Shown here: in pieces, positions 1 to 64,000 of the stretch | Layout of the letters: each line of letters opens with the position of its first letter | How positions within the stretch are numbered: the first letter of the stretch is position 1 | Assembly (NCBI GenBank): GCA_003117195.1 | Contig: BDSI01000246.1 | Coordinates: 1-64,000, forward strand | Direction of reading: 5' to 3' | DNA: 64,000 bases | From: Eudorina sp. 2006-703-Eu-15 | Taxonomy: Eukaryota; Chlorophyta; Chlorophyceae; Chlamydomonadales; Volvocaceae | Notes under the pieces: generated by a model | Told to the model about the DNA's origin: nothing | What the model saw: only the letters and a program-made list of their open reading frames with translations | Databases searched by the model: none | Position numbers and translations under genes: made by a program

Positions 1-425
1 TTTCCCCTCCCGGTGTGGGCCTTTCGTTGTTGTCTCTTTTGTTTCCCGGTTGGGGCCGCCCCCGTCGTCCTTCCTTTTGGGGTGTCCCTCCGTTGTCCCT
101 TTTCTTTCCTCTCCCTTGTTCGTCTCGTCCGTGTTTCCCCTGCCGGTCCCTGCGTGTGCCGCCCTTTGGGGTTTTCTCCCCGTCCCCCGGCCCGGCCCCC
201 CCCCCGCCCTGCCTTTGTTGCCCTCCGGGCCGGCTCGTTTCCTTCCCCTTTTCCCGCCGTTTCTTTCCTTCCGTCTTCCTTCTTTCGTTCCCCTCTGGGG
301 GGGCCGTCCCTCCCTCCCCCCGGTTGTTTTCGTCCCTCCCTCCCTTTCGGTCCCCCGGCGGGGCCGCCGCTCGTTCCTTTCGCCCCCGTTTTCTTTTCGT
401 TTCGGTTTCCCGCTTTCTCCCCTCT
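1..425. other. Spacer upstream of petA
   Basis: Adenine-free pyrimidine-rich sequence with short GC palindromes of the CCCC-GGGG type. No recognisable gene. It should contain the petA 5' leader, but no ribosome binding site can be read because a GGA-type signal would have lost its A. Confidence 0.6.
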
Positions 426-1353
426 CTGCTTCCGCCCCCTTCGGCGCTCTGCGCTCCGCTTTTTTCGCTGTTCGTTTCCGTGTTGCTGGTCTTCCCGGCG
501 GTCCTCGCCGTCGCCGCTTCTCCTCTTTTTGCCCCCCCCCCTCCGCCCTCCCCGTGCCGCCCTGGTCGTCTTGTTTGTGCGCCCTGTCCCTTCGCTCCCC
601 CCCCCGTTGCCTTGCCGTTCCGCCCGCTGTTTTCCCGCCTCCCGTTTTTGCCGCGGTTCTTGCCCTCCCCTCCGCTCCCCCGTCCCCCCCGTCTTCGCTC
701 CCGGTCCCCCGGTGCTTTCCCTGTTGGTCTGGTTTTCCTTCTTCCGCCGGTTTTGCCCTCGCGCCCCCGCTCGTCTTCCTGCCGCCTTCCGCCCCCGTCG
801 GTCCTCTTTCCTCTCCCCCCTCCCGTCCCGCCCCCCCCTCTTTTCGTCGTCGGTCCCGTCCCGGGTCCCCCTCCCCTGCCCTGGTCGTGCCTCTTTTCTC
901 TCCCGCTCCTGCTCCCCCTCCCCCCGTTTCTTTTTTCCCCTCTCCCCTTTCCTTTGTGGTCCTCGTGGTCGTGCCCCGTTTCTCCCGCTGGTCCCCCTCC
1001 CCCCCTCCGCTCTCTCCTGCCTCCGCTGCTGGTCCCTCGTCGCTCTTCTTCCTCTTGCCCCCCCCGGTGGTTCTGCCTCCCCCTTGCCCCCGCTCCCGGT
1101 GCCCGCTTCTCGCTCCCGTTCCGGCCGGTCCCGCTTTCCTTGTTCCCGCCGGTCCCCTCGTCCCCGCCGCTCCCCCTTTCCCCCTCCCCCGCCTGTCGGT
1201 GGTTTTGGTCCGCTGCCCCTGCCCTTGTCCTCCCCCCCCCGTGCGTCTTCCCGGTTTCTTCGTCTTCTTTCGTTTTCTTTTCCTCCCCCCCCTTTTTCCT
1301 CGTTCTTCCGCCCCCCCCTTTGCCCCGTTCCCTTGGCCGCCCTGCCTTTCTCC
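426..1353 (+). CDS. petA: Cytochrome f precursor (A-to-C recoded)
   Basis: Apocytochrome f, the c-type haem subunit of the thylakoid cytochrome b6f complex that passes electrons to plastocyanin or cytochrome c6. Start chosen at CTG (ATG) 426, which puts exactly 31 codons before the mature Tyr-Pro-Ile-Phe-Ala N terminus at 519, the usual signal-peptide length. The haem motif Cys-Ala-Asn-Cys-His reads as CAPCP at 576-590. VVGPVPGKK reads as VVGPVPGPP near 850, and NVGGFGQ reads as PVGGFGP near 1,200. The C-terminal membrane anchor and the final Ala-Glu-Met-Asn-Phe lead to TCC (TAA) at 1,351-1,353. Several frame changes are needed; one is a missing C in the run before that tail (GCCCCGTT for GAAAAAGTT). 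Next gene is petD, as in Chlamydomonas. Confidence 0.93.
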
Positions 1354-2552
1354 TTTTCCGCTCCCTTTTCTCCCTTCCCGGGCCTCACCTCCGTCTGTGC
1401 TTTTCCGTTCTTCTTCCCCCCGGGGCTTCCCTTCTTCTTCCCCGTCGGGGCCTCCTTTCCGCTTCCCCGTCGGGGCCTGCTTTCGTTGTCCCCTCCGGGG
1501 CCGCTGCCGTCGTCCCCTCCGGGGCCGCCGCCGGGGTTCCCCGGCGGGGCCGCCCCCTTCTCGTTGTTGTGGCCTTTCTTCCCCTCTGGGGCCCTGCCTC
1601 CCCTCCGCGCCGCTTTCGCGGCCCCCTCCTTGTCCTTTCCTGTTCTTCGCTCTCCTCTGTCCTTCCGGTCCCCCCCCCGGGATTGATAGACGTTTTTCTT
1701 TCACCTTGTTTCGTTTCCCTGCGGGGCCCGCCGGTCCCCGCCCCGGCGTCCCTTTCCTCTCCGGCCCCGTCCGGGCCGTCCCCGCGCCTTTCCCCTTTTT
1801 CGTTTTTGCTTCCTTTTCCCCCTTTTTTTCTTTCTTCTCCTTCTTCGCCCGTCCCCCTCTCGTCCTCCCTTTTGTTTGTCCTCCTTCCCTTGTCCCTGTC
1901 CCCTGCGGGCCCCCCCTGCCGTTTGCCCTTTTTGGCCTTTCCCCCTCCTGTTTCCGGCCGGCTTGTCCCCTCCCCCCGTCTTTTCCTTTCTTCCGCTCCT
2001 TTTCTTTTCTTTTTGCGCTCCTTTGTCTTCCCCCTTTCCCTCTTCCGCCCTCCTTTCCCGTTTCGGTTGTCCCGTTGTCATCTTCTCCATTTCGTTTGTC
2101 TTCCCCTCCGGGGAACCCCTACGGTTCCCTCTCCGCCGCCGCCCTCGCTCCTTCCCCCTTTTTCGTCGTCTCTTCCCCTTCGGGGCCTCCGTTCTTTCCC
2201 CCCGCGCCCTCCCGTCCCGCCGTTCCCTTTGGGCCTGCGTCCGTTTCCTTTTGTTGTCCCTTTCCCCGGCCGCGGTTCCTTCCCCCTGGGGCCCTCGGGC
2301 CCCCCGCGGGGCCGCGGGGCCGCGCTCCTTTGTGTCCTTCCGCCCTCCGTTGTCTTCCTTTTCGTTTCCTTTCCGTGGCCTCCCGTCTCCTTGGCGTTCT
2401 GTCCCCGGCCCCTTGCTGTTTTTTCTCTTTCCTTCGCCGTTCTCCTGTGGGCCCGCCCCGCTCCCTTCCCGCGCTGTCCCCTCCTTTTTCCCCCCGTTTT
2501 TCCTTTTTCTCCCGCTCTTTTCGCTTCTTCGCTCCTTCCTCGCTCTCCCCCT
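1354..2552. other. petA-petD spacer with hairpin repeats
   Basis: 1,426-1,560 holds consecutive GC hairpins built on CCCCTCCGGGG and CCCCGTCGGGG. A-bearing spots lie at 1,682-1,702 and 2,078-2,122. At 2,101-2,128 two hairpins overlap: TTCCCC/GGGGAA, then GGAACC/GGTTCC. No gene recognised. Confidence 0.6.
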
Positions 2553-12856: not shown

Positions 12857-14734
12857 TTGGGTTTTCCTTGTCCCTTTGTCCCCTCCGGGGGCCGGTCCCC
12901 CCGCTCCCCCCCTTCGGGGGCCCGCCCCCTTTCCCCCGCCGGGGCCCCGGTCCCCCCGCGGGGCCGCCCTCCTTGTCTTTTCCCTCTGTCCCCTCTGGGC
13001 TTCCGGGGCCGCCTTGCCGGGCCCCCGCCCCCCCCCCCCCCCTTCACTCGTCCCCTGTGCGTCTTCACCTTTGGCGCCGCCGCGCTCCCGGGGGCCCGGT
13101 CCCTGGTCCCTTTCCGCCCCCGCGCCCGGTCTGCTGCCCCTCCCGGGCCGGTTCCGCCGCCGCCCCCCTCCCGGCCCTCCCGGCCCGTCCTTTTCTTTTC
13201 CCCGCGCTTTCTTTCCCTCCCTTCTTTTCTCCCCTTTCTCTGGTCCCCCCCCTTCCCTTTCCCTGGTCTCCCGTTGGGCGTTTTTGGCCCCTTTCTTGGT
13301 TTCCTTCTCCCCCCGTCCCTTGTTCGTCGCCCCTGGGGTTGCTTCCCCGGGCCTCTCCCCCGCCCTGCCTCTACCCCTGTCCAAGGGTTATTGGGATGCT
13401 GTTGGTCATCAAATTTTGTCTGGTTATGGTAGTTTTTGTGCTTTTGCTGGTGGTTCTTTGTCTGTGCCGCCCCGTCCGTGGGCCGTCGCTCCTCCCCTCG
13501 GTTTTCGCTTGCTTCCTCCTCCCTCGGGCCCCCTTTTTCTGCCGCTTTTGGTCTCTCCTCCCCTTCGCTCCTGCGTGGCCCCTTGCCGCCTCTCTCCCGC
13601 CCCCCTGTTTTTCCGCGCCCCTCCTGGCCTTTCGTTCCCCCCCGTCGCCTCTGCTCCTCTTCCCGCGTCTGTTCTCGCTCCGCTCCCGTGTCTCTCTCCT
13701 TTTTCGGCTGCCTCCCTCTCCTGGGCTTCTTGGTTTTTTTCTGTCCCGCCTTTTTTGCCCCCCCCTTCGTCCCTCCGCCTTTTCCCTCCCTCTCTTCTGC
13801 CCCTGGCCGGCCTGGCTTGTCTCCTTTCTCGCTGCGTTTGTTCTTTGGCTGTTCGTTTTCCCCCGCCCCGCTGCGGCGCGGCTGCCCCCCTTTTTTCGCC
13901 TGCCCGCCCCGCCCCCTCCTCGCCCGTCTTCCGTCCCGCCCTCCGCCTTTTTTCTCCCGCCTCTTCCCTTCCTCCGTGTGTCGCCCGTCTGGCGGTCCTT
14001 CCCCCCGCCCGTTCTGGGCCGCTCCCTCGTTTCTTCGTTTTCCCGGCCCTCTTTGCCGCCTCCGCCCCCTTGTCTTTCGCTCTTTGGGCCGCCCGGGTCC
14101 TCCCCCCGTTCGCCCTCCCCTCTTCTTTGCCCCGCTTGCCTGGGTGCGTGTCCCCCCCTTTGGCTGGGGCTCCCCTCCCGCTCCCTGCTTTGTTTTTTCT
14201 CCCGTTCCTTTCCCTCTCCTCCCCTTCCCGGGTCTTTCTGGTCTTCTTGGCTCTCTTCTCGGTGCCGGCCTGCTGCCGGCCCTGCCTCTTTGGCCCTCTT
14301 TGCCCCTCTTTTCTGGTTCGTCCTCTCTCTTTTGCTTCCTCTTGTCCCCGCTTCGGCTCTTTCGGCCGCTTGTCCCCCCTCTCTTTGGCCTTTCCCGCCT
14401 TCGTTTCCCCCTGTTCCCCCCCGCTTTTGTTCCTTTTCCCTGGCCTGTCCTTCCCCCGGGGCCCCCTTCCCCGGCCCCGCCGCTCCCGCCCCTCCTTTTT
14501 CCCCCTTCTGTTTTCGCTCTCCCGCCCGCTTCTCTTTTTGCTTCTGCCGTTCTTTCCGGTCGCCCGTCCCCCTCTTCCGGGTGCTGTGTTTGTCTTTGGC
14601 TTTCGTTCTCCTGCTTTGCGTCCTCTTTCCCTCCCTTGTCGGTTTCTGTCTTCTTGGCTTCTTGCGCTTTGCTCCCCCCTTTTGCTCCTCTTCCCCGTTT
14701 CCCCCCTCCCTCCCGCCCTCCCCCTCTGTACGGC
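12857..14734. other. Spacer with an A-rich island of unknown nature
   Basis: GC hairpins at 12,880-12,970. At 13,383-13,432 a 50-base stretch keeps normal base composition and reads in one frame as a plausible peptide (SKGYWDAVGHQILSGYGSF). The following 1.2 kb has more G than most spacer, with Trp and Gly codons in several frames, so an unrecognised gene is possible. Confidence 0.45.
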
Positions 14735-14918
14735 ATTTCCCCTAAGGTGGACGTTATTCGCTTCCCTGTCCCTGTAAGGGAATAGTTCCCCCTATGGGGA
14801 CGCCCCTGCTCTCCCCCCTGTCGTCCCCGTCCCCTTTGTTTCTCCCTAAAGGGAGACGAACTATTGCGTCCCCGTCCCCTTTGTTTCTCCCTCCCGGGCG
14901 CCGCCCTCTTGCGTCCCC
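14735..14918 (+). repeat. Hairpin island with matched A and C copies
   Basis: TTCCCT/AGGGAA at 14,762-14,782 and TCCCC/GGGGA at 14,787-14,800 are A-bearing hairpins. Next come two copies of one 39-base unit: 14,835-14,873 has AAAGGGAGACGAACTATTG after CTCCCT, while 14,880-14,918 has CCCGGGCGCCGCCCTCTTG. The eight differences are all A versus C. This is the cleanest internal proof of the substitution. Confidence 0.95.
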
Positions 14919-38989: not shown

Positions 38990-39825
38990 CCCTTTGTTTC
39001 TCCCTTGTCCCCTCCGGTTCCCCCCGGGGCCCCGGGCGCCGCCCCGGCGGGGCCGGGCCCCGTCGGGGCCCGGGTGCTTCCCCCTTAGGGGGGACCGCTG
39101 TCTTCCCCTCCGGGGAACCCCTTTGTTTCTCCCTTGTCCCCTACGGTTCCCCCCCGGGGCCCCGGGCGCCGCCCCGGCGGGGCCGCCGGGGCCGCCCTCT
39201 GTTCGGGTCCCTTCGCTAGTAGTTTCCCTTCAGGAACGTCGTCCCCTTTGGGGCCTCGCCGGGCCCTCCGTTCGTTTCCGGGCCTGGGGCCCGCTCCCGT
39301 TTCTCGTCCCTCCCCGGCCCCTCTTCCCTGTCCGGGCCCGGGCCGCCGGGCGTGGGGGCTGCCCGGCCGCCCGCTTCCCCGATGTTGTCCCTTTAAGGTA
39401 AGGCTTCCCCTTGTCTTCCCCTCCGGGCCCCCCCATTCGTCCCCAGTGCTTCCCCTACGAGGCCGCCCCCGTTTCTCCCTCCCGGGCGCCGCCCTCCCCC
39501 CCCTTCCCCTCCGGGGCCGCGGCCGGCTCGGGCCGCCCGTCCGCGCCGCCCCGGTTCTGTTTGCCCGTTTTCGGTCCGCGCCCCGGCCGCCCGTGTCGTC
39601 CCCTTTGTTTCTCCCTTGTCCCCTCCGGTTCCCCCCCGGGGCCCCGGGCGCCGCCCCGGCGGGGCCCGCTGTCCCCCCGTCTCTTTGTTTCCCTTACTCG
39701 CCTCTCAGTTCGTCCTCTTCCCCTCCTGGGCCGCCGCCCTGCCCGCGCCCCGCATCGCGTCGTTCCCCTTCGGGGACTGTTTATCGTTCCTTCCACCTTA
39801 TTTTCCCTGGAGGGGAATTAGATTC
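38990..39825 (+). repeat. A-bearing repeat cluster upstream of chlL
   Basis: Element copies at 38,990-39,070, 39,120-39,200 and 39,600-39,665, a CCCCC-TTA-GGGGG hairpin at 39,080-39,093, and adenines scattered at 39,215-39,460 and 39,695-39,825. The last hairpin TTCCC/GGGAA (39,803-39,817) contains GGAGG (39,809-39,813), which could be the chlL ribosome binding site. It is one of few places where such a signal survives. Confidence 0.7.
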
Positions 39826-40758: not shown

Positions 40759-42829
40759 GCTTGCTCCTGCGCCTCCCTCCGTTTCCTGTTTCTCCCTTTT
40801 GCTCGCCCCTCGCGCTCCGCCCCTTCCCCGTGTCGTTCGTCTCCGCCTCTTCGCTTCTCCTTCCGCTGTTTCCCCCTGCTTCTCGCTTGTCCTTCGTCTG
40901 TTTTTGTTTTTGCTTTTTTCTTCCTCCTTTGCCTGTGTTCCCCTTCGGGGCCCCCCTTCCCTCGCTTTTCCGCTTCCCCGTTCCCTGTTTTCTTTTTCTT
41001 CCGTCTGTTTTCTTGTTTCTTGCGGCCCCGCGCTTGCCCTTTTTCTCTTTCCCCGTCCTGCCTCTCGTTTTTTTGCTGTTGTCCCTTTCCGGGCCCCCCC
41101 GCTTCCGTTCCGTTGCCGTCCTGCCTTTTGCTTCCCCTCTGGGGCCGTCCCTTGTCCTTTTCCCCCGTGCCGGCCGCTTCGCCCCTCCGTCCCCCGCCCC
41201 CCCCCCTCCGTTGGCGCTCTTCCCCTTCGCCGCCCCCTCGCCCTCCGTTCCTTTTCCCGCCTTTCCCCTTCCTTTCCTCTCGCCCCCTCCCCGCCTTCCC
41301 TCTTGTTCTCCCCCCTTTTTCTCTTCCTCCCTCCGCCGCCCTTTCTTTTTCTGTTTTTTTCGCCTCCCCTTCCGTCCTTCCCCCCCCCCCTTTTGGTCCC
41401 GCTGCCCCTCCCCCTCCTCGTTTTTGTTTGTTTGTCTTTCCCCGGCTCCCCCTCTCCTCCCCCGTCCCCTTTCTTTCCTTTTCTTCCCTCCCCTCCTCCT
41501 GTTTCGGGCCGGCGGCTTCCCCCCGTTTTCCCTTTCCCGCCCCTTTCCCCTCCCCGTGTCTGTTTTCCTTTTTTCCCCCCCCCCGCCTTTCCGTTGCTGC
41601 TTCTCTGTGTTTTCTTTTGTGTTGCCCCCTTCCCCCCTTCTCCCTCCCCTCTTCTGCCCGTCCGTGCTTCTGTTCCCCCCTGTGTGCTCCCTGTCGTCTC
41701 CTTCCCCGTCCCGGCCCCGTTCTGGTGCTTTGTTCCCCTGCTCCCCTCCCCCCGCCCCGGTCCCTCGTCTTTTTTCGCTTCCCCTCCTGTCCCCTCTTTT
41801 TCTTCTTCTCTTCCTCTTGTTCTTTGCTCTGTTCCCCCTTCCCGGTCCCTTTCCTGCTTTTTTCTTTCTGCCTGTCTCCTTTCTCCCCTCCCCCTGCCCC
41901 TTGGCTTCCCCGCTGGTTCTCCCCTCCCCTCTCCTTTTTCGTCTCCCCGGTTCCGCCCCGTTGTGCTTTTGTTCCCTTCCCCGGCCCCCCCGTCTTCCCT
42001 TTCTCCTCCCCTTCTGGGGCCGCGCCTGGGCTGCTTTTCTCCGCCGGGGTTTTTTTGTTTTGTTTTCGTCCTCTTCCCCTCCCGGGCCCCGGGGCCCTCC
42101 GTGGCGTTCCCTTTCGGGGGCCGCCCCGCCTGCCTTGTTCGGTGCCCCGCCGCCGCCGCCCCGCCCCCTGCGGGGTCCCCCGCCCTCCCCGGCCCCCCTC
42201 TCCGTGCCCTCCCCCTCCGTGCTCGTTCCCCTTCCTTTCCGGTCCCCCGTTGTTCTTCCCCTTCGGGGCCCTCCCCCGGCCTGCCTTTTGTCCCCCCGGT
42301 GTTCGCTCTCTTCGCTTTCCCGGCGTCTCCCGCTCCCTTGCCCCCCTTCCCCCCGGCTTTTTCCCTTTCCTCCCCGCCTCTTTTGTTCCCCTCTCGGCTC
42401 TGTGCTTTTCGCTTGCTGCTTTCCCCTCCGGGGCCCCGTCCCCCCTCTCCCGCCGTCCCTTCTTTTTGTTGTGTTCCTCCTGGCTCGTGCTGGTCTTCTC
42501 CCCTGCTCCTCCCCCTCCCCCCTGCCCTCTCTCCTTTTCGGCTCGTCTCCTGCCTTTTCCTTTTCCCCCTTTTTCTCCCCCCTGTCCGTCCGCTCGCCTT
42601 TCCCGCGCCCTCCCCTCCCCTCTCCTTTTTTCCGTCCTTTCCCCTCCCCCCCGCGTTTCTTTTTTTCTTTTTTTCTTTTCTCCTCCCCTCCGTTCCCTTT
42701 TCTTTTTCCCCTCTCTTCTTTTTCCCCTCCTCGTTTGGTTGCTCCTCCCCCCCTTTCTCCTCTTCCTTCCGCTCCCCTGCCCCCCCTTGGCCCGCCCTTT
42801 TCCTCCCCTCTTCTTCTGGTGTCCCTCCT
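40759..42829. other. chlL-rpl23 spacer
   Basis: No adenine seen. Ordinary pyrimidine-rich spacer with GC palindromes near 40,945 and 42,060-42,300. No gene recognised. Confidence 0.5.
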
Positions 42830-43099
42830 CTCCTCGCTTTCGTCCCTCCCCGGTTCTTCCCGCCCCCCCTCTGTTGCTTTCTTTCCCCTCGTCCCTCTCC
42901 TTTTGCTGTCGCTTTCCGTTTCCCCCCTCCCCCCTTCCCCCCTCTTTGCCCCTTTCTTTCCCGTCCCTGTTCTTTCCGTCCCTCCCCCTCTTCCTCCCCG
43001 TCCCCCCTTCGTGTTGGTTTCGCTCCGGGTTCTCGTCCTCGTTCCCCCCGTGCTCTTCTTCCCTTCCCCGCCGGCCCTCCCTTCCTTCTTCCTCTTTCC
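42830..43099 (+). CDS. rpl23: Ribosomal protein uL23 (A-to-C recoded)
   Basis: Large-subunit protein at the peptide exit tunnel. QYTFDVDLRLTKP reads [13 protein letters not shown] near 42,900, and RVGLAQGYRPRYKRALLTL reads [19 protein letters not shown] near 43,010-43,070. The frame ends at TCC (TAA) 43,097-43,099. The start is uncertain; I place it just before the segment reading LAFV (IDLV). About 90 codons, the family length. First gene of the ribosomal-protein cluster. Confidence 0.86.
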
Positions 43100-44178
43100 T
43101 GCCGGGCCCCCTGCCCTTCCCTCCCTGTCCCGCGGGCGCCGCCCCCCCCGGCTCCCGGTTCTGTTTGCCTGTCTCCTTTCTCCCTCCCCCTCTCCCTCCG
43201 CGTCCCCCTTCCTTGTTTCCGCCCTCTTCTTTCCTTTTCGCCCCCTCCCCGCCGTCGTTGCTCCCCCCTTGTCGCCTCCCCTTCCTTTTCTGTCCGCCTG
43301 CTCCCCTCCCCTCCGTTGCCTTTTCTCTGTGCTGCCGTTCCTTCTCCCTCTTCTCTTCTCCGCTTCCCCTGCTCCGCCCCCTCCCGCTGGCCTTCTTGTT
43401 TGCGTTTTTCCCGGCCTTCCGCGCTTCCCTTGCCCCTTTCTGCTTTTTGGCTTTTGTTCGTCCCTTTGTTGTCGCCTTGTCCCTTTCGTTTTTCGCCCTC
43501 CGTTCCCCGCCGGGGGGTTCCCCCCTCCCCTGTTGCTTCCTCGTCGTTTCCCTCCGGTTCCCCTTTGGGGCCCCCGTCGTCCCCTTTGGGGCCCCGCCCG
43601 GGCCCCGCCGGGCGTGCCGGGCCCGCGGTCCCCCTCCGGGGCCGCCCCTCCGGTTCCCCTTCCCCTCTGGTTCGTCTCCCTTGTCCCCTTTGGGGCCCCG
43701 TCGGGGCCCCGGGCGCCCCCCGGGGTTCCCCGCGGGGCCGCCCGGGGTTCCCCGGCGGGGCCGCCCTCGTTCCCCTTTGGGGCCCCGGGCGCCGCCCCCT
43801 GGGGCCCTGGTTGTCCCTTCCGGTCCCCCGGCCGCCCCCGCTTTCCCCTCCGGGGCCCCCCCCCGTTCGTCTCCCTTCCCCGTCGGGGCCCCGGGCGCCC
43901 CTGTTGCTTCCTTGTTCCCGTCGGGGCCGCTTTTTCCCCCTCCGGGGCCGCCGCGCCCCCCGCCCTGGCGCCGTGTGCCGGGCCTGGGGCCGCGCTGGGG
44001 CCCCGGGGGCCGCGCCGGGGTTCCCCTCCGGGGCCGCCCCCCGCCCCGGCGCCGCCCCCCCGGGCCGCCCCCCGCCTTTTTCCGGCCTCGCCCTCCCCCC
44101 CCCTCGCCTTCCCGTGTTCCTTTCCCCTCTGTCCCCCCGTGCCCTCCGCCCCTCCCTCGTCCCTCCCTTTTTCTTTTT
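43100..44178 (+). repeat. rpl23-rpl2 spacer with element cluster
   Basis: 43,550-44,060 is one of the densest dispersed-element clusters, with GGTTCGTCTCCCTT at 43,670 and many CCCCTCCGGGG palindromes. All copies are fully converted; no adenine is visible. No gene. Confidence 0.7.
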
Positions 44179-45003
44179 CTGGGCCTTCGCTTTCTTCCCG
44201 CCTCTCCCGCCGGTCCCCGCCCTCGTTCCGTTTCCGCTTTTCGTGCCTTCCCTGCCCCCCCTCCGTCCCTGCCCCCCCTTCCCCCTCCGTTTCCCCCGCT
44301 CTCCCGGTCGTCCCCCTCGTGGTCTTCTTCCCTGTCGTCCCCGCGGGGCGGTCCTCCGCGTTTCTCTCGTCCCCTTGCTTTTCGCCGTGCTCCCCTTGGT
44401 CTTCCCGCTCCCGTTTTCCGCCTTGCCTCTGCCCCCCTCGTCCTTCCCGCCTTGCTTTCCTTCGTTCTGCGGCTGGTGCCCCCGTTCTCTTCTCCCCCCC
44501 GTGGTTTCCCTCTTGGTGCCCTTCTTCCCTCTGCTTTCCCTGCCCCGCTTTTCCTTGGTCCTTCTTTCCCCTTCCGTCCTCTTCCTTTCGGTGCCGCCGT
44601 TCCCCCCGTTGCCTTTCCCCCCGGTTCCGGTGGCCCCTTCGCCCGCTCCGCTGGTGCTCTGGTTGCCCTTTTCGCCCCGCCGGTCCTTTTGTCCCCCTTC
44701 GTTTCCCCTCTCCCGCCCTTCGCTTCGTCTCTCCCCCTTGTTGGGCTCCTGTTGGTCCCGTCGGCCCTCTCGCCGCCTCTCCTTTCCCCTCCGGTCCCGC
44801 CGGCCGCCCTCGTTGGTTCGGTCCCCGTCCCCCTGTCCGTGGTTCTGTTCTGCCCCCTGTTGCTCCCCCCCCTGGTGGTGGTGCCGGCCGTGCTCCTCTT
44901 GGTCGTCGTCGCCCTGTTCCTCCTTGGGGTCGCCCCGCCCTCGGGCCCCTTCCCCGCCCCCGCCCCCTCTCGCCTCCTTTCCTTGTTCCCCCCCGCCCCC
45001 CTC
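44179..45003 (+). CDS. rpl2: Ribosomal protein uL2 (A-to-C recoded)
   Basis: Core 50S protein needed for peptidyl-transferase assembly. Start CTG (ATG) 44,179 reads LGLRF, then GTRNRSVS reads [25 protein letters not shown] reads [34 protein letters not shown] reads [16 protein letters not shown] after a frame change; ILHPRGLNVGD reads [11 protein letters not shown]. The signature [20 protein letters not shown] reads [20 protein letters not shown] near 44,830-44,880, then WGKPALG reads WGRPALG. The stop is not secure; length is near the usual 275 codons. Confidence 0.94.
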
Positions 45004-45452
45004 CCCTCCCCCCTCCTCTCCCTCGTCTCCCGCTGTCTCCTTCTGGCCCGGCTGGGTGTTTTGTTGGTTCTTCTCTCTTTCTTTGTCCCTTTTCGTTCGT
45101 TTCCCCCCTCGCTCCCGCCCGTTCCTGCTTGCGTCCGGTCCTCCCTCTTGTCCTCTCTCGTTCCCTTCGCCCCCCCCCTCCCCCGTCCTCCCCCCCCTCC
45201 CCGTGCTTCCCCTTCCCCTCCGGTTCCCCTTTGGGGCCGCCCGGGGCCCCTCCCTTTCTCGTCGTTGTCCTCTCCCCGGGTCTCCCTCCCCTGTCCCCCC
45301 TTTCTCCTCGCGTTTTGTTCGCGCCTTTTTTCTCCCTTTTCTCCCCCTCCCCCCCTCTTCCTTTTTCTTTTCCTTTTTTTTTCCTCTTCCCCCCTCCCGT
45401 CTTCTTCTGTTCCTCTCCTCTTCGTGCCCTCTCCCGTCCTTTTCCCCCGCTC
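45004..45452. other. rpl2-rps19 spacer
   Basis: Adenine-free pyrimidine-rich spacer with a partial element near 45,210-45,300. No gene. Confidence 0.5.
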
Positions 45453-45723
45453 CTGTCCCGTTCTCTTCCCCCGGTCCTTTTGTTGCCGCTCCTTTCCTTC
45501 CCCCCTTGCCCCTTGCCTCCTCCCGGTCCCCCCGTCGTTCTTCCCCCTGGTCCCGTTCTTCTCTGCTTGTTCCCCCGCTGCTTGGCCCTCCCCTTGGTGT
45601 TTCTCCTGGTCGTGCCCCTCTCCCCGTTTTTCTTCGTGCTCCCCTGGTTGGGCCTCCCTTCGGTGCCTTTTCCCCCCCTCGTCCCTCCCGTGGTCCTGCG
45701 CCCCCGCTCCCCCTCCCCCCTCC
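45453..45723 (+). CDS. rps19: Ribosomal protein uS19 (A-to-C recoded)
   Basis: Small-subunit head protein. Start CTG (ATG) 45,453 reads MSRSLKK-GPFVADHF as [15 protein letters not shown], with one C missing in the Lys-Lys run. TWSRSSLIVPNMLGHTLGVY reads [37 protein letters not shown] reads [17 protein letters not shown] near 45,650-45,700. A TCC (TAA) at 45,721-45,723, after another small shift, gives about 90 codons, the family length. Confidence 0.9.
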
Positions 45724-47756
45724 TTTTGGCTTCCCTCCCCCTCTCCCCCTTCTCGCTCTTCCCCCGTCCCTCCCGCTTCTTCCCCCTCTCGTTTCCTCGT
45801 GTCTCCCTCTCTTCGTTTCCTTTCGGGTTCCCTCCCCTGGCCGGTGTTTTCGTTCCTTGTTTTCCCCTCTGGGCCCCCTCGCCTGCTTTTCTTTCCTCCC
45901 CTTCCCCCTCCTCTCCGCCCCCCGGGCCCTCTCCGGTTTCCTTTCCCGCCGGCTTCGCTCCGGTTTGTCTCCCTCTCTTTTCCTCCTCTTTCCTCGCTTC
46001 CTCCTCCCGCCCTTCTCTTTGTCCTTCTCTTTGTCCGGTGTTTGCGTTCCCCCCGGGGCCCCCGTTGTTCGGTTTCTTTTTCCCTGTCTTCTTTCCCTCT
46101 CTCCCCCCCCCGCCGCTCCTCCTTTTTTTGGTTCCGCCCCCGCTTCTCCCCTCCCTGCTTCTGTCTTCTGCCGCCGGCTGTCCTCTTCCCCCCTCCGTCC
46201 TTCTGGTTTCTGGGGGTCCCCCCTGCGTTCTGCCCTCCTTTGCCTCCCTCTCTCCTTCTCCCCCGTTTTGCCTTTCTTTCCTCTCCCCCCTCGCCGCGCC
46301 CTCCCCTTTTTCCCCTCCCGTTGCTTGTTTTTCCCCCCTTGCCCCCCCGTTCCTTTTTTCCCCGTCCCCTCCCTCCCGTTCGCCCCCCTTCGTTCCTCCC
46401 CGTCGCGCTTCTCCCTTCTCTCGCCCGTTCTCCCCCTTGTCTTTCTGCCGTTCTGGCCCTCCCCCGCGGGTCCTCCCCCGTGGCCCTCTTCTCTCTTTCC
46501 CCTTCTCTCGCCTTTTTCTTTCTCCCCCGTTCTCTTTTTTCCCGTTGTTTGTTCCTTTGTTTTCCCTTCCGGTTGTTTGCCCCTCGTGCATGCTCTGTTT
46601 CCTTGCCCGGGCCGTCCTGTTCCCTTTCCTTTCCCCTTCCGGGGCCCCCCGGGCCGCCGCCTGCCCTTCCCTCCCCGGCCCCCGGGGCCCGCCCCCCCTC
46701 CCCCGCCCGCCGCCCTTCCGCGTCCCCTCCGTTTCCTCCTCCGGGGCCGGCCGTTTTCCCCTCCGGTTGTCCTTTTGTCTTTTCCCTTTGTCCTTGTCGG
46801 TGCTTCCCCTGTCCCCTCCGGTTCGTCTCCCTTGTCCCCTTTGGGGCCCCGTCGGGGCCCCGGCGCCCCCCCGGGGCCGCCCGGGGCCGCCGTCTCCTCT
46901 GTTTCTCCCTTGTCCCCTCCGGTTCCCCCCCGGGGCCCCGGGCGCCGCCCTCCGGGGCCCCGGCGCGGCCGCCCTGCGGGGCCGGGGCCCTCCCCGGGCC
47001 CCGCCGCCGGGCCCCCTCCGGGGCCGCCGCCCCTGGCGCCCTCCCCCGTCCCGTCCCCTTTTCCGCGCTCTGGGTTTCTTTTCCCCCGCTTGCTTCCCCC
47101 CGCTCCCGCTGTCTGCTTGTCCCTCCCCCCTCCTTCTCTTTTTCCTGTCTCCCGCGGCCCCCGTCGCTCCTTCTCCCCGTCCCTCTTCTCCCCGCTTCCT
47201 TGTTTTGTCTCGCTTTCTTTTCTTGTCTTTTTTCGCCCGGCCCCGTGTTGCGCTCCCTCTCCCGTCTTCCCGGTGTTCCGCCCTTTTGTCCCCCGCTCCT
47301 TTTTCTCCCCGTCCCCTTCGTTCTCTTTCTGTTCCCCTGCCCTCTCCCGTTTCTCTGTTGCCCTTTCTTGCTTTTGCCCGCCTGGTTGCTTTTTTTCGCT
47401 CCCCCTCCCCCGCCGCTGCTCGCTGCTTCCTTCTTCCCCTTCCTCTTTCTTTTTTTTCTCCCCTCGCTTTTTTCTCCCCTTCCTGCCTCCCGTCTTTTTT
47501 TCCCCCTTTTCCGCCGCTCCCCCCCCTCCGCCTTTTTCTGCCTTTCTCGCCTCCCGTCCCCCCCCCCGCCCGCCCCCCCCTCTGTTTGTCCCGTCCTTCC
47601 TCCTTCTCCGCTGTGTTTCCTCCCCTCCCTCCTTTCTCCCGCCTCCTTTCCTTTCTTTTTTCTTCCCGTCCCCTGCCTCCTTTTCCCTCCGGGTTGTTGT
47701 CCCCCCGGGGCCGTCCGTGCTCTTTTCTCCCCCCCTCCCCCCTCTCCCCCTCCCCT
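45724..47756. other. rps19-rpl16 spacer with element cluster
   Basis: A single adenine is visible (46,590, in GCATGC). 46,630-47,040 is rich in GC palindromes and dispersed elements. No gene recognised. Confidence 0.5.
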
Positions 47757-48165
47757 CTGTTCCGTCCCCCCCGCCCCCGTTCCGTCCGCCCCCTCGTGGT
47801 CCTTTCCGCGGCCCCGCCCCTCGTGGCCCTCCGCTTGTGTTTGGTGCTTTTGCCCTCCCCGCTCCCGCCCCTTGTTGGCTCCCTTCCCGTCCCCTTGCCG
47901 CCGGCCGTCGCGTTTTCCCGCGTTCTGTTCGCCGCGGTGGTCCCTTCTGGCTTCGTCTTTTTCCCGCTCCCGCTGTCCCCCTGCGTCCCGCCGGTCCGCG
48001 TCTGGGTTCCGGTCCCGGTGCTCCTGCTTCTTGGGTCGCGGTTGTCCCCCCCGGTCCCCTTCTTTCTGCCCTGCCCGGCGTCTCTGCCCCCCTCGCTCGC
48101 CCCGCCCTGCGTCTTGCCGCTTCTCCCCTGCCTGTTCCCCCCCCCTTTTTCCCCCCCCTCTTTCC
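47757..48165 (+). CDS. rpl16: Ribosomal protein uL16 (A-to-C recoded)
   Basis: 50S protein near the A-site tRNA. Start CTG (ATG) 47,757 begins [29 protein letters not shown] reads [29 protein letters not shown] reads [23 protein letters not shown] reads [34 protein letters not shown] reads [20 protein letters not shown] near 47,990-48,050. Largely one frame from 47,800 to 48,130. The exact stop is not visible in that frame. Confidence 0.94.
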
Positions 48166-49344
48166 GCTCCCCTTTCCCTCCTTTTCTCCCCGGCCGGTTC
48201 CCGCTCCTCTTCTTCCCGGCCCGTCTCTCCCCTTCCGGGCCCGCTTTGCCCGTTGTTTGTCCTTGTCTTTTCTCCCCCCCTCCTCGGCTCCTTCCTCCCG
48301 CCTCTTCGCCCGCTTCCCCGCTCCTCTTCTTCCCTTCTCCCCCCCTGCCCTCCGTCGCTCTCCTCGCCTCCCCTCTGTCCTTCTTTCCTTTCTCCCCCTG
48401 TTCTTGTCGCCCCCTCCCCCTTTCTCTTCCGTCGTTTGTCCCCGCCGGGGCCCCCCCTTCCCGGTTTTTTGCCTTTTTTGTTGTTGCTTCGCCGTCGCCC
48501 CGGTCCTTCCCTCCGGTTCCCCCTTTGTTTCCCCGCTCCGCTCTCTCCCTTCTGTTCTGCTCTTCCCTGCCTTCTTCTTTCCTCCTCCCCGTCTGTCCTC
48601 CCCCCTCGCTTGCCTTCGTTGTCCCCTCTCTTTGTCCCTTTTCGCGCGTTCCCCCCCTCGTCCCTTGTCTTCCCTCCCGGGGCCGCCGCCCTCGTTCTCC
48701 CCTCCCCCGCCCGCCCTCTTGCTTCGTTCCCTTCTCTTGTTCTCCCCCCTTTTTTTCCTGTTTTCCCCTGTCTCCCCCTCCGCTTTTCCGTCTTGTTTTG
48801 CTTTTCTTCCTCCGCCCCTCCGCCTGCCTTCTCCCTCCTTCCTTTTTTCTCCTTCCCGCTGTGGCCCGCTCCCCTCTTTCCCCCTCTTTTTTCTGCTCCC
48901 TCGTGTTGTTCCCCTCCGGGGCCCCCTCCCCCTTCCCCCTTCCTCTGCCTCTGCTGCGCCCCTCCCCCCCCCTCGCGTCCCCCCTCCGCCTTCTGTTCCC
49001 CTCCCCGCGCCCCTCCTCCGTCCGTTGCCTCTGTGCCGCGCGCCCCCGTTCGCCCTCCCTTTTTCCTGTGCTTCCCCTTGCTTCCCTTGTTCCTCCTCGC
49101 CCGTTTCCCGCTGTTCCCCTCTCTTCCTTGTCCTTGCTCCTCTCCGTTCTCTTTTTTCGCCTGTCCGTCCCCGCGGGGCCCCCGTTCTCTTCCTCCCGCG
49201 CCCGCTTCTTTTTCCCTCTTCGCGCGGCCCCCGTCGTTCCGCTTGCCCCCCCTCCTTCCTTCTCTTTGTTGTTCTTCCCCTCTGGGGCCCCTCCGCCTCT
49301 CTTCCCCTTTTTTGCGCTTCCTCCCCCTTTTTCTTTCTTTCTTT
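48166..49344. other. rpl16-rpl14 spacer
   Basis: Adenine-free pyrimidine-rich spacer. Short GC palindromes at 48,440, 48,670 and 48,915. No gene recognised. Confidence 0.5.
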
Positions 49345-49711
49345 CTGCTTCCCCCTTTCTCTTCTTTCCCTGTCGCCGCTCCTCGTGGTGCGCGTGCCTT
49401 CCTGTGTCTCCGTGCCCTTGGCGTCGTTCTCGTGCCTCTGCTCCTCTTGGCGCTGTCCTTCTTGCCGTTGTTCCCGCTGCTTTCCCGCCTCTGCCTGTTC
49501 CCCGTTCTGCTCTTGTCCGCGCTGTTCTTGTGCGTCCCCGTCCCGGTCTTCGCCGTGCCCCTGGCCCCCGTCTCCGTTTTGCTGCTCCTGCTGCTGTTCT
49601 TCTCCCTCCCGCCGGTCCTCCTCGTGGTCCCCGTGTTTTTGGTCCTCTTGCCCGTGCCTTCCGTGCTCCGCCTTTTCCCCCCTCGTGTCTTTCGCCCCTG
49701 CCGTTTTCTCC
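49345..49711 (+). CDS. rpl14: Ribosomal protein uL14 (A-to-C recoded)
   Basis: 50S protein at the subunit interface. Start CTG (ATG) 49,345; early LNVAD-SGARALMCIRALG reads [34 protein letters not shown] reads [36 protein letters not shown] reads [20 protein letters not shown] near 49,620-49,680. The end IVSLAPEVL is followed by TCC (TAA) at 49,709-49,711. 122 codons, exactly the family length, with two or more frame changes. Confidence 0.95.
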
Positions 49712-52079
49712 TTTTCGTTTTCTTTTTGCCCGCTGTTCTTCGTTTGTCTCTTTTGTTTCCGCCCCGGGGGCTGTCGTCTCCCCTCCCTTTGTCCCTGTCC
49801 CTTCCCCGGCCTCGTCCCCCTTCCCCCTGTTTCTCGTCTTCCCCTCTGGGGCCTGTGTCCCCTCTGGGGCCTGTGTCCTCGCCGGGGCCTGTGTCCCCTC
49901 CGGGCCCCCGGGCCCCGCCCCGGGGCCGCCCCGCCGGGCCCTCGGGGCGCCCCCCCGGGCCTCCCGTCTTTGTCTTTCCCCTCCGGGGCCCGCCGCGGGC
50001 TTCCGCCTCTCCCCCGCCCGCCGTCCCTTCCCTCCCCTGTGCCGTCCCGCTTTCCCCTTCGCCGCCGCCCGCCTCGTTTCCGTCTTCGCCGGGTCCCCGC
50101 TCCCGCTCCTTCGTCGCCCCGCCTCCTTCCCGCTTGTCCCCGCCGGGGCCGCCGCTGTTGTCCCCCTCCCCTTCCCTCCCCTTCTCGTTTTTCCCCCGCC
50201 GTCGTGTGTTCCGCCTCCTTTCCCCTCGTCCCCTCCCCCTTCCCCCCTCCCTTCCCTCCCTGTCCTTGTTCTCCCCGTCGGGGCCCTCCTCGCCCGCTCC
50301 CCCCGCTTTTCCCCCCCGCCGGCGCCCTCCCCCCTGCCCCCCCTGTCCTCCCTTTCCTTTCTCTTTCTCCCTCCCCTTCTTTTCTCCCCTGCCCGGTCGC
50401 TTTGGTTCTCTGCCGTTTCCCTTTTCCCGTCCCGTCCCTGCTCCCGTTGTTCTCGTCCCTCCCGGTGCGGTTTCGTTTTTGTTCCCCTCTCCCCTTCTTG
50501 CTTCCCGTTCTGCTTGCCTCCTTTCTTTTGTTTCCCTTTTTTTTCCCGTTTTCGTTTTCCTTGGGTGTGTCCCTTTCAGTTCGTCTCTTGTCTCCTTGTC
50601 CCTTTCGTTTCCCTTCGGGTCCCCCCGCGCCCCCCGGCCGGCTGCGCGTTCCCTCCGCCTCTCTTCTCCTCTGGGGCCCCTCCGGTTTCCTTTTTGCCTC
50701 CCGTTCGTCCTCTTCCCCTCCGCGGCCCCGGGGCCCTCCCTGTCGTTCCGCGCCCCTGTCCGGGGTTCCCCGGCCGGGCCGCCCGCCCCGCCGCCGCCGT
50801 CCCTTCCCGCGCCCCCCGCCCCGTCCTTCCGTTCCTCTTCCGGGCCCCCGGCCCCCCCCCTCCCCCCCCCCCCCCGTTGCCTTTCCCCCTCTTTTGTTGT
50901 CCCCTCTTCTTCCGTCCTCTCCGCTCCTCCTCCCCCCCCCGCTGGCTTTCTTCTCCCCGCCGGGCCCCCCTCCGCTCCTCCCTCCCCCTTCTTTTGTCTT
51001 TCTTCCCCCTTTTTCCCTTTTTTCTCTTTCCCCTTTCCTTTCTTTCTCCTCGGTCTCTGCGTTTTCTTTTCCCCCCGCTCCTCTCCCCTCTTTCCTTCTT
51101 TCCTTCTTCCCCTCCTCCCTTCGTCCCCGGCCTGCTCTTTTTTCCCCTTTTTCGTTCTCCCCTTGGCGTCCCCCCGGGCCGCCGTCTTTTCCGTCTTTCT
51201 TCTTCCCCTTCCCCCCGCCCTTTCCCCTCGTTTGTTTGGCCCCGCCCCTTTCTCCCTCTCTCTCCCCCCTTTTGTCTTTCGTGCCTTCGTTGGTTGCTCT
51301 CCCTCCCCCCTCCCGCGCTCTTCTCCTTCCCCTCCCTGCTCTTCCGTCCCTCGTTTCGCCTCGTTGTCGTTCCTCCCTCCTCCTTTCCCCCCCGTTTGTG
51401 CGCTTTCTTCTCCTGGCTTGGCTTGCTCCGCCTGTCGTCCCCTTTGTTTCTCCCTCCCGGGCGCCGCCCCGCCGGTGCTTCCCCTTCCCCTCCGGTTCGT
51501 CTCCCTTTCGGGCGCCCCCCGGGCCGCCCGGGGCGCGCCCCCTTTCCCCTCCGGTTCCCCTTCCCCTCCGGTTCGTCTCCCTTGTCCCCTTTGGGGCCCC
51601 GTCGGGGCCCCGGGCGCCCCCCGGGGCCGCCCGGGGCCGCGCTGCGGTCCTCTTCCGGGGCCGCCTTGCCCGCCTTCCTTTCCTCTCCGGCTCCGCCTCC
51701 CGGGCCCTCCGCTCCTCCCTTCTTCCTTCTGTTTGTCCCCCCCCTCCCCCCCCCTTGCCCTTCCTCCCTTTTGTGCTCGGCTTGTTGCCCTTTCCTTCCT
51801 CGCCCTTGTGTTGTGCTTTCTGGCCCTCTTCTCCTGTTTCCGCCTCCCGTCTTCCCGGCCCCCGCCCTGTCCGTGTGCCTCCCCCTTCTCTTCCCTTCTT
51901 CTTTTTCCGCTCGCGCCTTTTTTTTCCCCTCCCCTCCCTCGCTTCGCTTTTCGCCCTGCCCCCGTCTCTGGTCCCCCTTTCGTTGGCCTTCCCTTTCCCT
52001 CCGTTCCCGCGGGTCTGTCGCTCTTTTTTGCCTCTTGTGTCTTTTTTTTTGTTTTCCTTTTCTTTTTTTTTTTTTCTTT
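49712..52079. other. rpl14-rpl5 spacer with tandem and dispersed repeats
   Basis: 49,841-49,907 has three and a half copies of an 18-base unit (CCCCTCTGGGGCCTGTGT). 51,430-51,660 carries dispersed elements, including the fully converted copy at 51,561-51,622 used for comparison. One adenine at 50,579. No gene recognised. Confidence 0.55.
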
Positions 52080-52640
52080 CTGCCCCCCCCTTCCCCTCCT
52101 CTTCCTTTTCCCCCGCCCCGCCTCCCCCTTTCTCTCCCCCCCCTCTTGTCCCCCCCTTCCTTCCCCCCTTTCCTTCTCCCCCTCTTCCCGCCGTCCCCCC
52201 CTTGCCCCCCTTGTCCTTCCTCGTGGCTTGGTGCTGCCTCCCCCCCCCCCCCTCGTCGCCTCCCGCTTCCCCGCCTTCGCCCTGCTTGCTGGTCCCCCGG
52301 TGTGGTCCCCCGTTCCCCCCCGCCCTTGCTCGTTTTCCCTTCCGCCCCCCCTGCCTGTCGGTGTTCCGGTTCCTTTCCGCGGTGCTCGTCTGTCTGGTTT
52401 TTTCGCTCGTTTCCTCCCTTTCGCCTTCCCCCGTGTCCGTGCTTTCCCCGGCCTTCGTTCTCCCCGTTTTGCTCCCCCCGGCCCTTCTCGTTTCGGCTTC
52501 GCCGCCCCCTTCCTGTTCCCGGCCCTTGCCTCTGCTCCCCTTGCTCCCGTTCGTGGTCTGGCTCTTTCCCTTGTTCCCCCCGCCCCCCCCCCGCCGCCGG
52601 TCTTTCTCTCTTCCCCGCCTTTGGCTTCCCTTTTCCCTCC
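52080..52640 (+). CDS. rpl5: Ribosomal protein uL5 (A-to-C recoded)
   Basis: 50S protein of the central protuberance that contacts 5S rRNA. Start CTG (ATG) 52,080 is the best fit for about 180 codons. VTLRGDRLYGFLDRL reads [15 protein letters not shown] near 52,335-52,380, then ALPRIRDFRG reads [20 protein letters not shown] reads [23 protein letters not shown] reads [13 protein letters not shown]. The tail EEGLSLLKALGFPFK leads to TCC (TAA) at 52,638-52,640. The C run before that tail has 10 C where 11 are needed. The first 50 codons are too Pro-rich to check. Confidence 0.9.
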
Positions 52641-53925
52641 GTTTTCCCTTTTCGGTCTTTCCCCGCGCCGCCCGCCCCGCGCTCCCCCTTCCGCCTCGGC
52701 CCCGCTGTCCCCTTCCGCCCCCTTTTTGTCCTCGTGTTTCCTTTTTTTGGTTCCCCCCTCTCTCTCTCTTGTTTTTGTTCTTCTTGCTTCCTCCTTTCTT
52801 TTCCCCTCGTTTCTGCCTTCTCTCCTCCTTTCCCCCGTTCCGCGCCTTCCGCCCGGCCTGCCCCCTCGCTTCCGCGCGCTGTGCGTTGTTGCTCTCTGCG
52901 TGCCCCCCGTTGCCCTGTTCCCTCCCCTCCTCCCTTCTCCCCTCCTCTCCCTTTTTCTTGCCTCCCGTCCCCCGTGGCTTTGATTGTTTTTTCCTTTTGC
53001 GACTAGCATTGGTGAATTTTATAAGTTGTCCCGTTTCTTAGTCGCTTTGTCCCTTGTCGTCCTCACTGTGCTTTCCTCATCTTTGCGGTCTATACCCCTC
53101 TTCGGAACCCTTTATTTCCCCAGAGGGAACGTACGTGTCGTCCCCTTTGGGCCCCGGCGGGGCCCGCTGTCCTTCCCCGGCCCTCCGTCTTGTTGTCCCT
53201 CCCCGGGCCGTTCTTCCCTTGCTCTCTTCTTGTTTGTCCTCCGTTCTCTTCTGGGCCTCCCGGCCGCTTTTCCTTTCTGCTCGTTCTCCCGTGTTCCTTC
53301 CCCCCGGGGCCGCCCTGCCGTTCTCCTTTGTTTCTCGTCTCCCTTGTCCCTTCTTCCCCTCTGGGGCCGTTCCCCTCGTCCCTTCTTCCCCTCCGGTTCG
53401 TCTCCCTTGTCCCCTTTGGGCCCCGTCGGGGCCCCGGGCGCCCCCCCGGGGCCGCCCGCGGTCCCCCCCTCCGGGGGCCGCCCCTCCGGGGCCTGCCTCT
53501 TCCTGCTTTCCCGTCCGGGGCCCCGGGCCGCCGCGGGGGCCTCCCTCGCTTTCTGGGGCCCCCCCGGGCCCCCCCCCCGCCTCCCTCCGGCCCCCTCTCC
53601 CCCTCTGTTGTCCCTTTTTTCTGTTCGTTCCGTCGTTTTTCTTCCCCTTTGGCGTTCTTCGTTCCCCTCCCGCGCCCCCCCCCGGGCCCCTCCTTCCTCC
53701 TCCCCTTCCGTTCCCGCTTTGCCCTCCGTTGTCTTCCTCTGCTCCTCCCCCCTCCCCCTCTCCGCTGTCTCCCCCTCCCTCTTGGTCCCCGCCCTCCTTT
53801 TTCCGCCCTTTCCGCCTCCTCCCCCCCTTGTTTTCTTTTTTCTGCCTCTTCCCCCTCCCTTCCTTTCCCCCGCCCCGTTCCCTCCCCTGGTTTCCTCCCT
53901 GCTCGTCTTGGTGCTCTGTTCCCCC
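52641..53925. other. rpl5-rps8 spacer with an A-bearing island
   Basis: 52,983-53,145 keeps many adenines. GCGACTA/TAGTCGC (52,999-53,005/53,039-53,045) forms a 7-bp stem over a 33-base loop, TTCCC/GGGAA (53,116-53,129) a second hairpin, next to the palindrome ACGTACGT (53,129-53,136). Dispersed elements occupy 53,380-53,500. No gene recognised. Confidence 0.6.
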
Positions 53926-54298
53926 GTCTCCGCCCTTCTTGCTTCGCCCCCCCTCGCCTGTTTCCCTCCCGTTTCCCCGCTTCCCTCCCCCCCTTGCTCC
54001 CTTTTCGCCCCCGCCGGTTTTCTTCCCCCCTCTCCCGTTTCTTTCGCTTCCCCCGCCTTCCCCCTTCGCCTTCCCTCTCGCTCCCCCCCCTTTCCCGTGG
54101 TCCCCCCCCGCCTCTTGTCTCCCCCCTTTCCCCCGCCTCCGTCCCCCTGGTTTCCGTCTTTCTTCGCCTCCTCCCGCTCTTTTCCGCCTTTTCGGTGGCC
54201 CTGGTCTTGTTCTTGTGTCTCCTCCTGCCGGTCTTCTGCCCGCTCGTGCCGCCCGTCTTCGTGGCCTTGGCGGTGCCTTGCTTTGTTCTGTTTGGTCC
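53926..54298 (+). CDS. rps8: Ribosomal protein uS8 (A-to-C recoded)
   Basis: 30S protein that binds 16S rRNA helix 21. The C-terminal third is clear: LGGLGIVLVSTSKGLLTDRE reads FGGPGLVLVSPPAGLLPARA, then GLGGELLCSVW reads GLGGALLCSVW, with TCC (TAA) at 54,296-54,298. The N-terminal half is hard to read; the segment resembling VNDTVSDML near 53,928 suggests the start, which is approximate. About 124 codons against a usual 130. Last ribosomal gene of the cluster. Confidence 0.88.
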
Positions 54299-62600: not shown

Positions 62601-62930
62601 CTTCTCTCCTCCTGCCCTTTCGGCCCTCCTTGCCGCCGCCCTCTCTGGTCTCCTGCCTGGCCTCCTCCCCCTGTTTTTCCCCCTGCCCCCTCCCCCCTGT
62701 TTTCCCCCTCCCCTCTGGCCCCCTCCCCTCCGTCCCCCTTGCCCCCTCTTCCGTCTCCTTTTTTCCCGGCTCTCTTTCCCTTCCTTTCTGTGTCCTTTCC
62801 CCCTCCTCTTTCCCTGCCGTCCCCCGTGCCCTCCGCGGCCCTGTTCTCCTCTCCCCTCTTTCGTCTGTTTTTCCCCTCTTCCGCTTTGCGCCCTTTCCGC
62901 GCGGTCTTTGTCCCCTTTCTTTCCCCCCCG
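56611..62930. other. T-rich region, no gene identified
   Basis: The base mix changes: T rises and C falls, most strongly at 56,700-60,100. A-bearing islands sit at 57,438-57,488, 57,776-57,806, 58,782-58,830, 59,043-59,095 and 59,390-59,450; two share CTTTTTTAGTATT (57,451 and 58,784). The complement is A-rich and would encode a Lys/Asn/Glu-rich protein, as large chlamydomonad plastid genes (tic214, ftsH-like, rpo) do, with T reading as G. That is inference only; I could not match any motif. Confidence 0.35.
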
Positions 62931-64000
62931 GCGCCTGTGTTCCCCTTCGGGTTTGTCGTTGTTTCTGTTCCCTTGTCCCTTTGGTTCGTTCCTTCCGGTT
63001 GTCTTCCCTTTGTTTCTCCTTTGTCCTCTCCCCGTCCCCTCCGGTTGTCCCTTTGTCCTCTGTGCTTGTCTTCCCCTCCGGGGCCCCCCTGTCGTCCCCT
63101 TTGTTTCTCCCTTGTCCCCGTCGGGGCCGGGCGCCGCCCCGGCTGGGCCGGGGCCCCGCCGGGGCCGCGCCCTGGCCTTCCCTTCCGTCCCCGTCGGGGC
63201 CCGCCCCCGTTTCTCGTCTTCCCCTCTGTTTCTCCCTTGTCTTCCCCGGCGGGGCCCCCCTCTGTTTTTCCCTTGTCCCCGTCGGGGCCGGGCGCCGCCC
63301 TCCGGGCCGGGCGCCGCCCTCCTTGTCCCCCCTGGGCCCCCGGTCCCCCCCCGGGGGTTCCCCCCGTTCTTCCCCTTCGGGGCCGCCGGGCCGGGCGCCG
63401 CCGTTCGTCCCCTTCTCGGGCCCCGTTTCCCTTCCCGGGCCCGGGCCGCGGCCCCCTCCCGCGCCCCCCCGGGGCCTTCCCCGTCCTTCCTTTTCCGGCC
63501 TCCCTCCTTTCCCGCCTTCCCTCCCGGCGCCCCCTTCCCCCGCTCCGCTGTCCTCTCCCGCGCCCGCTCCGCCCGCCGCTTTTTGGTTGTCCGTTCCTCC
63601 CTTCTTTTCCGTTCCGTCCCTGTTTCTTGGCCCTCCCTTCTTCGTTGGTTTTCTCCCCCTTTCCGCCGTTCCGGCGTGTTTTCTGTCCTCCCCCCCGCCT
63701 CCGTTTTCCTCTGTCCTGCCGCCCTTTTTTCTTCTCGTCCCCTGTTCTTTCCTCTCCGCTCTCTCCCCCTTTCTCCCCTTCTTCCCCTGTCTTCTTTTTT
63801 CCCCTGTGTCGCTTTCCCCGCCGCCCCCCTCTTTCTTTCCCCTCCTTTTGTTCCTCTTCGCTCCTTTTTCGCCCTTGGCTTTCCCTCCTGTTTCCTTTTT
63901 CCCCTCTCCCTTCCCCCTTCCTTCTCTCCCCTCTCTCCTTTCCCTCTCCCCTTTCTTCCCTTTTTTCCCCTCCTCCTCTTCTTCTTCTCCCCCCCCTCCC
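62931..64000 (+). repeat. Dispersed element cluster and spacer to window end
   Basis: 63,060-63,480 carries several elements (TTTGTTTCTCCCTTGTCCCC halves, GGGCGCCGCC, CCCCGTCGGGG palindromes), all converted. From 63,480 to the end is plain pyrimidine-rich spacer without a recognised gene. Confidence 0.6.

Follow-up and report, generated by a model that had tools for sequence, protein, structure and literature searches.

Complete replacement of one DNA base is, to our knowledge, known only from phages, and the only route to a total replacement of adenine that we know of is PurZ of the Z-genome phages. In these phages, which include cyanophage S-2L and vibriophage phiVC8, adenine is wholly replaced by 2-aminoadenine, according to the part of PMC8775771 available to us. 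In eukaryotes, N6-methyladenine of the AMT1 type occurs at ApT as a component of chromatin and has been reported for Chlamydomonas too (available part of PMC12695648); the words chloroplast and plastid are absent from that text. Here we analyse 64,000 bases of the green alga Eudorina sp. 2006-703-Eu-15 (positions 1 to 64000, + strand; hereafter the window) from the plastid contig C246 (76,385 bp), which shows its own A as C. The window holds 301 A, 31,150 C (48.7%), 11,174 G and 21,375 T, and its conserved genes are otherwise intact. We give a probability of about two in three to the reading that nearly all adenines of both organelle genomes, plastid and mitochondrial, are chemically altered and read as C in native single-molecule reads.

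Were A read as C on both strands, the assembly (181,203,499 bases in 3,033 contigs, the window being C246:1-64000) should hold a second contig for each locus, with its own A as C. The search for such a contig, proposed as a check in an earlier reading made from the letters of the window (the sequence-only reading), was successful, and at the paired plastid loci both strands are affected. The probes were islands, short stretches in which A is normal. The opposite-strand form of an island read as psbD matches C632 with 2 mismatches, that of a C1157 island read as 23S matches C246 and C445 with 0 mismatches, and that of the window island at 52983-53133 matches C220:1345-1490 at 97%, its three weaker matches in other contigs (72-82%) being taken for low-complexity. 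Window positions 41471 to 54486 align with C220:3-13000, whose own A is shown as C, over 13,181 columns with 17 conflicts and 348 gap columns. The column classes (window base, then C220 base) are CA 4,220, TG 4,199, GG 2,240, CC 2,128, AA 24 and TT 5; at the 4,252 columns where C220 has A, the window has C at 4,220, A at 24, T at 5 and G at 3, and at the 4,213 columns where the window has T, C220 has G at 4,199, T at 5, A at 5 and C at 4. Five opposite-strand pairs combined give 32 conflicts in 24,527 aligned columns, and two further pairs with C1157 give 13 in 3,334 and 23 in 3,929, compared with 668 in 3,897 and 562 in 3,038 for unrelated pairs used as a control. A change-blind word map of the samples, from which words occurring more than four times were excluded, returned 13 opposite-orientation sample pairs with at least 400 common words, together with two same-orientation pairs between different contigs (C246/C445 and C1157/C211) that appear to be inverted-repeat copies. 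Pairs with fewer words in common (60 to 332) are found in both orientations and have the appearance of repeats; second-strand coverage may be incomplete.

That it is A, and not another base, that appears as C was checked four ways, with island 20-mers, palindromes, the bases demanded by the rpl2 and rpl14 proteins, and the opposite-strand contig. From the islands of the window and of C602 we took 2,292 20-mers with at least two A and sought their copies in sampled converted sequence: exact copies with A replaced by C exist for 211 (1,686 in all, overlaps between samples being counted twice), compared with one word and one copy for A-to-G and three words and 60 copies for A-to-T as control changes. 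An unconverted minus-strand copy exists for 25 of these words and a T-to-G plus-strand copy for 21, and only 29 of 24,862 partly converted forms are present. At the 68 TTCCCCNNNGGGG sites of the window the ending is CC in 53, AA in 3 and something else in 12, and the palindrome TTCCCCNNNGGGGCC occurs 53 times against 0.55 expected for the whole motif under a first-order Markov model. Cores of the TCCCCNNNGGGG palindrome are dense across the whole window (107, with any last base, versus 4.85 expected). When rpl2 and rpl14 were compared with the solved uL2c and uL14c, the alignment being fitted under the A-to-C reading, A demanded by the protein appeared as C at 68 of 71 positions in rpl2 and at 61 of 61 in rpl14, and the other bases were kept: G at 90/90 and 65/67, C at 46/46 and 21/22, T at 41/43 and 38/39. 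Under A-to-C, 139 of 142 residues of rpl2 and 106 of 108 of rpl14 are decoded; without it 79 and 54 are, and shuffled references reached no more than 33 and 23. In the comparison with C220, conversion is at 97.6% or more in each of the 16 neighbour contexts, island bases included, so it is independent of neighbouring bases. The sequence-only reading, that A reads as C on the + strand with the other bases kept, is thus confirmed by composition, 20-mers, palindromes, both proteins and C220.

The lengths of runs show where the distinction between A and C was lost. Own-strand A is missing in 124 and 115 of the 348 gap columns of the window/C220 alignment. Pure runs of the window's own A are shorter in the window at 45 of 1,323 and in the other contig at none; for the own A of C220 the figures are 47 of 1,301 in C220 and one in the other contig. 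Shortening affects 97 of 272 mixed A/C runs of 5-8 bases in the window and 83 of 280 in C220, compared with 7 of 280 and 3 of 272 T/G runs of the same length. Mixed A/C runs therefore act like homopolymers, and A and C were already alike at read calling or alignment, before consensus. Some of the shortening could come from a consensus tool that does not handle C runs as it does T runs; the signal itself is the likelier cause. The shortened four-base T/G runs of C220 are mostly CCCC in the window and CCC in C220, many of them at palindromes.

The change extends well beyond the single segment and single strand to which the sequence-only reading had confined it. Nine plastid contigs are converted, C246 throughout and C211, C220, C271, C299, C445, C602, C632 and C1157 in their sampled parts; together they measure 495 kb, read in part, and their number is a lower bound, as more may exist. 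It is the filed strand that shows A as C in all ten sampled affected contigs, these nine and the mitochondrial C1511 (probability 0.001 under random orientation), and two converted-repeat patterns have 26 and 13 forward matches and 0 reverse ones. Nine other sampled contigs (C1, C245, C247, C601, C603, C1000, C2000, C3000 and C95) have ordinary composition. Each of the three reported Photo_RC matches falls in a converted contig, within a frame that stays open over 1,501 to 8,441 codons because stop codons require A. The near-identical same-orientation copies at C246:72049-76385 and C445:5001-9377 (4,397 columns, 3 conflicts) bear Photo_RC matches and a 23S motif and are probably the plastid inverted repeat.

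The mitochondrion is affected as well. On C1511 (15,332 bp) the matches to PF00115 (cox1), one of three above the family cut-off, lie in frames open for 2,527 to 2,693 codons, and A content in the 3,600 bases read is 0.7% and 0.0%. C95 (499,504 bp) carries a copy of the same mitochondrial stretch with ordinary A. Over 526 aligned columns the 142 A of C95 appear on C1511 as C at 140, as G at one and are missing at one, and the other bases (T 208, G 92, C 83) are unchanged, the whole alignment containing one mismatch and two gaps; it scores 515 under conversion, 114 under identity and 21 for the reversed control. C95 is probably nuclear, to judge from its length and composition and from the fact that the part of C1511 read does not match it outside this stretch; C95:489001-490200, near-identical to C1511:4421-4944 apart from A/C, is then probably mitochondrial cox1 DNA inserted into the nucleus, recently in view of that near-identity. 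Nineteen contigs carry intact copies of the nuclear 18S 3' end, at 21 places altogether (14 forward, 7 reverse), the motif detecting intact copies only. The A-to-C change follows compartment, not sequence, and probably not copy number, and the mitochondrion is presumably affected on both strands too. An intact bacterial 16S motif gave 0 matches in the assembly, which therefore offers no bacterial control.

The A that remain in the window are grouped in 53 clusters. Islands were defined as stretches with four or more A, so that their retention of A is partly by construction; in the five pairs, 212 of the 213 true A inside islands are shown as A, one as C and none is missing, and of the 7,463 outside them 7,274 are shown as C and 10 as A and 179 are missing (Fisher p 0.01 for missing A, inside versus outside). 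Of the 40-base stretches with 9-11 A+C, 49 of 190 have surviving A nearby, compared with 15 of 282 of those with 27-29 A+C. This confinement to low A+C stretches is what one would expect if short reads with ordinary A had been used for polishing, and the islands look like the traces of such a step. Besides the island at 52983..53133 (+), with 22 normal A, islands lie at 13373..13431 and 39754..39827 (both +), and further islands appear, by reading of their sequence, to belong to psbC, psbD and 23S. At 14831..14906 (+) two copies of one repeat are neighbours, the first with A intact and the second identical with A as C; the intact repeat had 0 matches among the viral contigs searched. Two lone A at 46590 and 50578, outside islands, are shown as A by the opposite-strand contig too and are true A that escaped. 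At C602 L008:4447-4602 an Rfam IsrR match (109.9 bits) lies antisense to the island read as psbC and is likely to reflect the conserved gene, not the cyanobacterial RNA.

These observations fit best with the proposal in the sequence-only reading of a modified adenine that is called as C, giving contigs of one orientation. We infer that the reads were of the native, single-strand, nanopore type, in which a chemically altered adenine, or an analogue in its place that still pairs as A, would look like C in the signal. For any one locus, reads from opposite strands would then differ at every A and T, the assembler could not join them, and each strand would give a separate contig showing its own A as C. 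Polishing with short reads, for which a polymerase would have copied the altered base as A, would restore A only where the draft is poor in A and the short reads align, that is, in islands. Organelle A shown as C beside normal sampled nuclear DNA suggests chemically altered organelle adenine, unless an artefact struck organelle reads only, and the completeness of the change and its lack of a motif are more in keeping with replacement at the nucleotide level, or with an unspecific enzyme, than with a site-specific methyltransferase. A dual-targeted organelle DNA polymerase might allow one system to serve both organelles, dual targeting of such polymerases being known in plants and red algae (available part of PMC6523293). 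We lean slightly towards the further view that practically every A of both organelle genomes is modified, through a system common to plastid and mitochondrion and excluded from the nucleus, which would make these the first cellular genomes with one base wholly replaced.

Several points weigh against altered adenine. T/G runs of four are short in C220 in 23 of 269 cases, opposite to the trend. The two converted-repeat patterns, exact reverse complements of each other before conversion, match unequally (26 versus 13), where full coverage of both strands should give the same count; either the second strand is not fully covered or run shortening has removed some of the words. In prokaryote genome contigs a converted 16S motif had 0 exact matches in its sense form and 0 in its antisense form. 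The PurA-family search, which could miss very diverged or finely split genes, found one locus only (four exon-like matches on C5 spanning positions 1-400 of PF00709), so that a PurZ route is not supported. In the literature searched, as far as its texts were available, no base is reported as called C at every A and we recognised no report of altered organellar adenine. The nanopore signal of N6-methyladenine (6mA) is said to overlap that of native A (available part of PMC12613841), so that simple methylation fits poorly and N6-methyladenine is unlikely to be the base. Both organelles are also high-copy, and a depth-linked fault is still conceivable; depth overflow as such is disfavoured by intact rDNA.

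A processing or base-calling artefact confined to organelle reads, for instance from error correction of very high-copy DNA with the DNA adenine itself normal, is the form in which the data-processing error of the sequence-only reading survives, and we consider it unlikely. Plastid and mitochondrial DNA are high-copy as a rule, and the affected contigs are plastid and mitochondrial; yet nuclear rDNA, which is multi-copy too, has its 21 intact 18S 3' end matches (converted copies could not be found with this motif), a failing A counter should give mixed errors or gaps and not C for 7,274 of the 7,284 A that are retained outside islands, and A runs are not shortened equally on both strands of a locus. 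Another possibility, which we regard as very unlikely, is that the adenines were modified outside normal biology, for instance by a non-specific adenine methyltransferase labelling open DNA, histone-free organelle DNA being saturated and nuclear DNA not. The affected compartments are indeed the two without nucleosomes, and the sampled nuclear consensus is normal; however, near-complete conversion in all contexts surpasses usual labelling, the overlap of 6mA with native A in signal applies here as well, and such a library would be an improbable source for an assembly.

The simple form of a data-processing error, in which A was swapped for C in the text of the finished plastid contigs, would account for the shared filed-strand orientation of all ten sampled contigs, and is contradicted by the existence of opposite-strand duplicates, by own-strand A and mixed A/C runs that are shortened far more than T/G runs, and by islands that retain A. 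At first we took the change for an error of the filed strand, made at the consensus stage or in the file; the opposite-strand contigs led us to abandon this view. A real A-to-C state of the DNA, as the contig has it at face value and as the sequence-only reading had allowed, is refuted: the strands are not complementary at the changed sites, since the opposite-strand contig shows T and not G there and the pair would be C:T, and the residues at the 129 of 132 positions where a protein-demanded A is shown as C would be lost.

Merging of the window with C220 restores plastid genes, as bases lost in one strand-contig are supplied by the other. The merged sequence has 34% GC and carries on the + strand, in this order, rpl23, rpl2, rps19, rpl16, rpl14, rpl5 and rps8. 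An open frame with rpl23 (42742..43118; PF00276, 91.5 bits) becomes readable; rpl2 lies in an open frame of 286 codons (44167..45014), in which the window alone has a one-base loss near 44673; rps19, with an approximate start, is at 45450..45732 (PF00203, 131.1 bits) and an open frame with rpl16 at 47691..48163 (PF00252, 177.3 bits). The open frame with rpl14 (49256..49709) has in the window alone a one-base loss near 49422, rpl5 (52032..52634; PF00673, 115.6 bits, on the C-terminal part only) keeps one frame change in the merge, and the open frame with rps8 (53915..54296; PF00410, 84.3 bits) is matched on its C-terminal part. Open frames of at least 100 codons total 2,662 codons with all merge columns kept and 1,984 with own-strand-A gaps only; the total is 1,951 when the window length is used, 1,180 when the C220 length is used and 1,130 when gap columns are left out.

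Altered adenine in plastids and mitochondria, if true, would raise questions on organelle replication, defence and inheritance, and such genomes could hide in assemblies as A-less contigs. Even an artefact would be a trap: a tRNA scan and an Rfam scan of the window gave no match, and at least ten organelle contigs are unreadable as filed. In other respects the DNA resembles known plastid genomes. It has the ribosomal-protein cluster, psbA/psbD-type genes and rDNA of chlorophycean plastid DNA, and it shares TCCCCNNNGGGGA palindromes and a repeat-rich plastid with the volvocine algae Gonium and Volvox, for which the available parts of PMC2670323 and PMC3582580 make no mention of altered adenine. 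With eukaryotic N6-methyladenine of the AMT1 type it would share a modified adenine in a eukaryote; that mark is limited to ApT in nuclear chromatin, whereas here organellar A is affected in all contexts and sampled nuclear DNA is normal. A reading of 2-aminoadenine as C by nanopore is the subject of no paper in the literature searched, as far as its texts were available. Unlike Z-genome phages, the system concerns cellular organelles and two genomes at once, and no second, PurZ-like homologue of adenylosuccinate synthetase was seen beside the single PurA-family locus; like these phages, it affects essentially every A of the genome, in any of the 16 contexts, and would keep the pairing with T.

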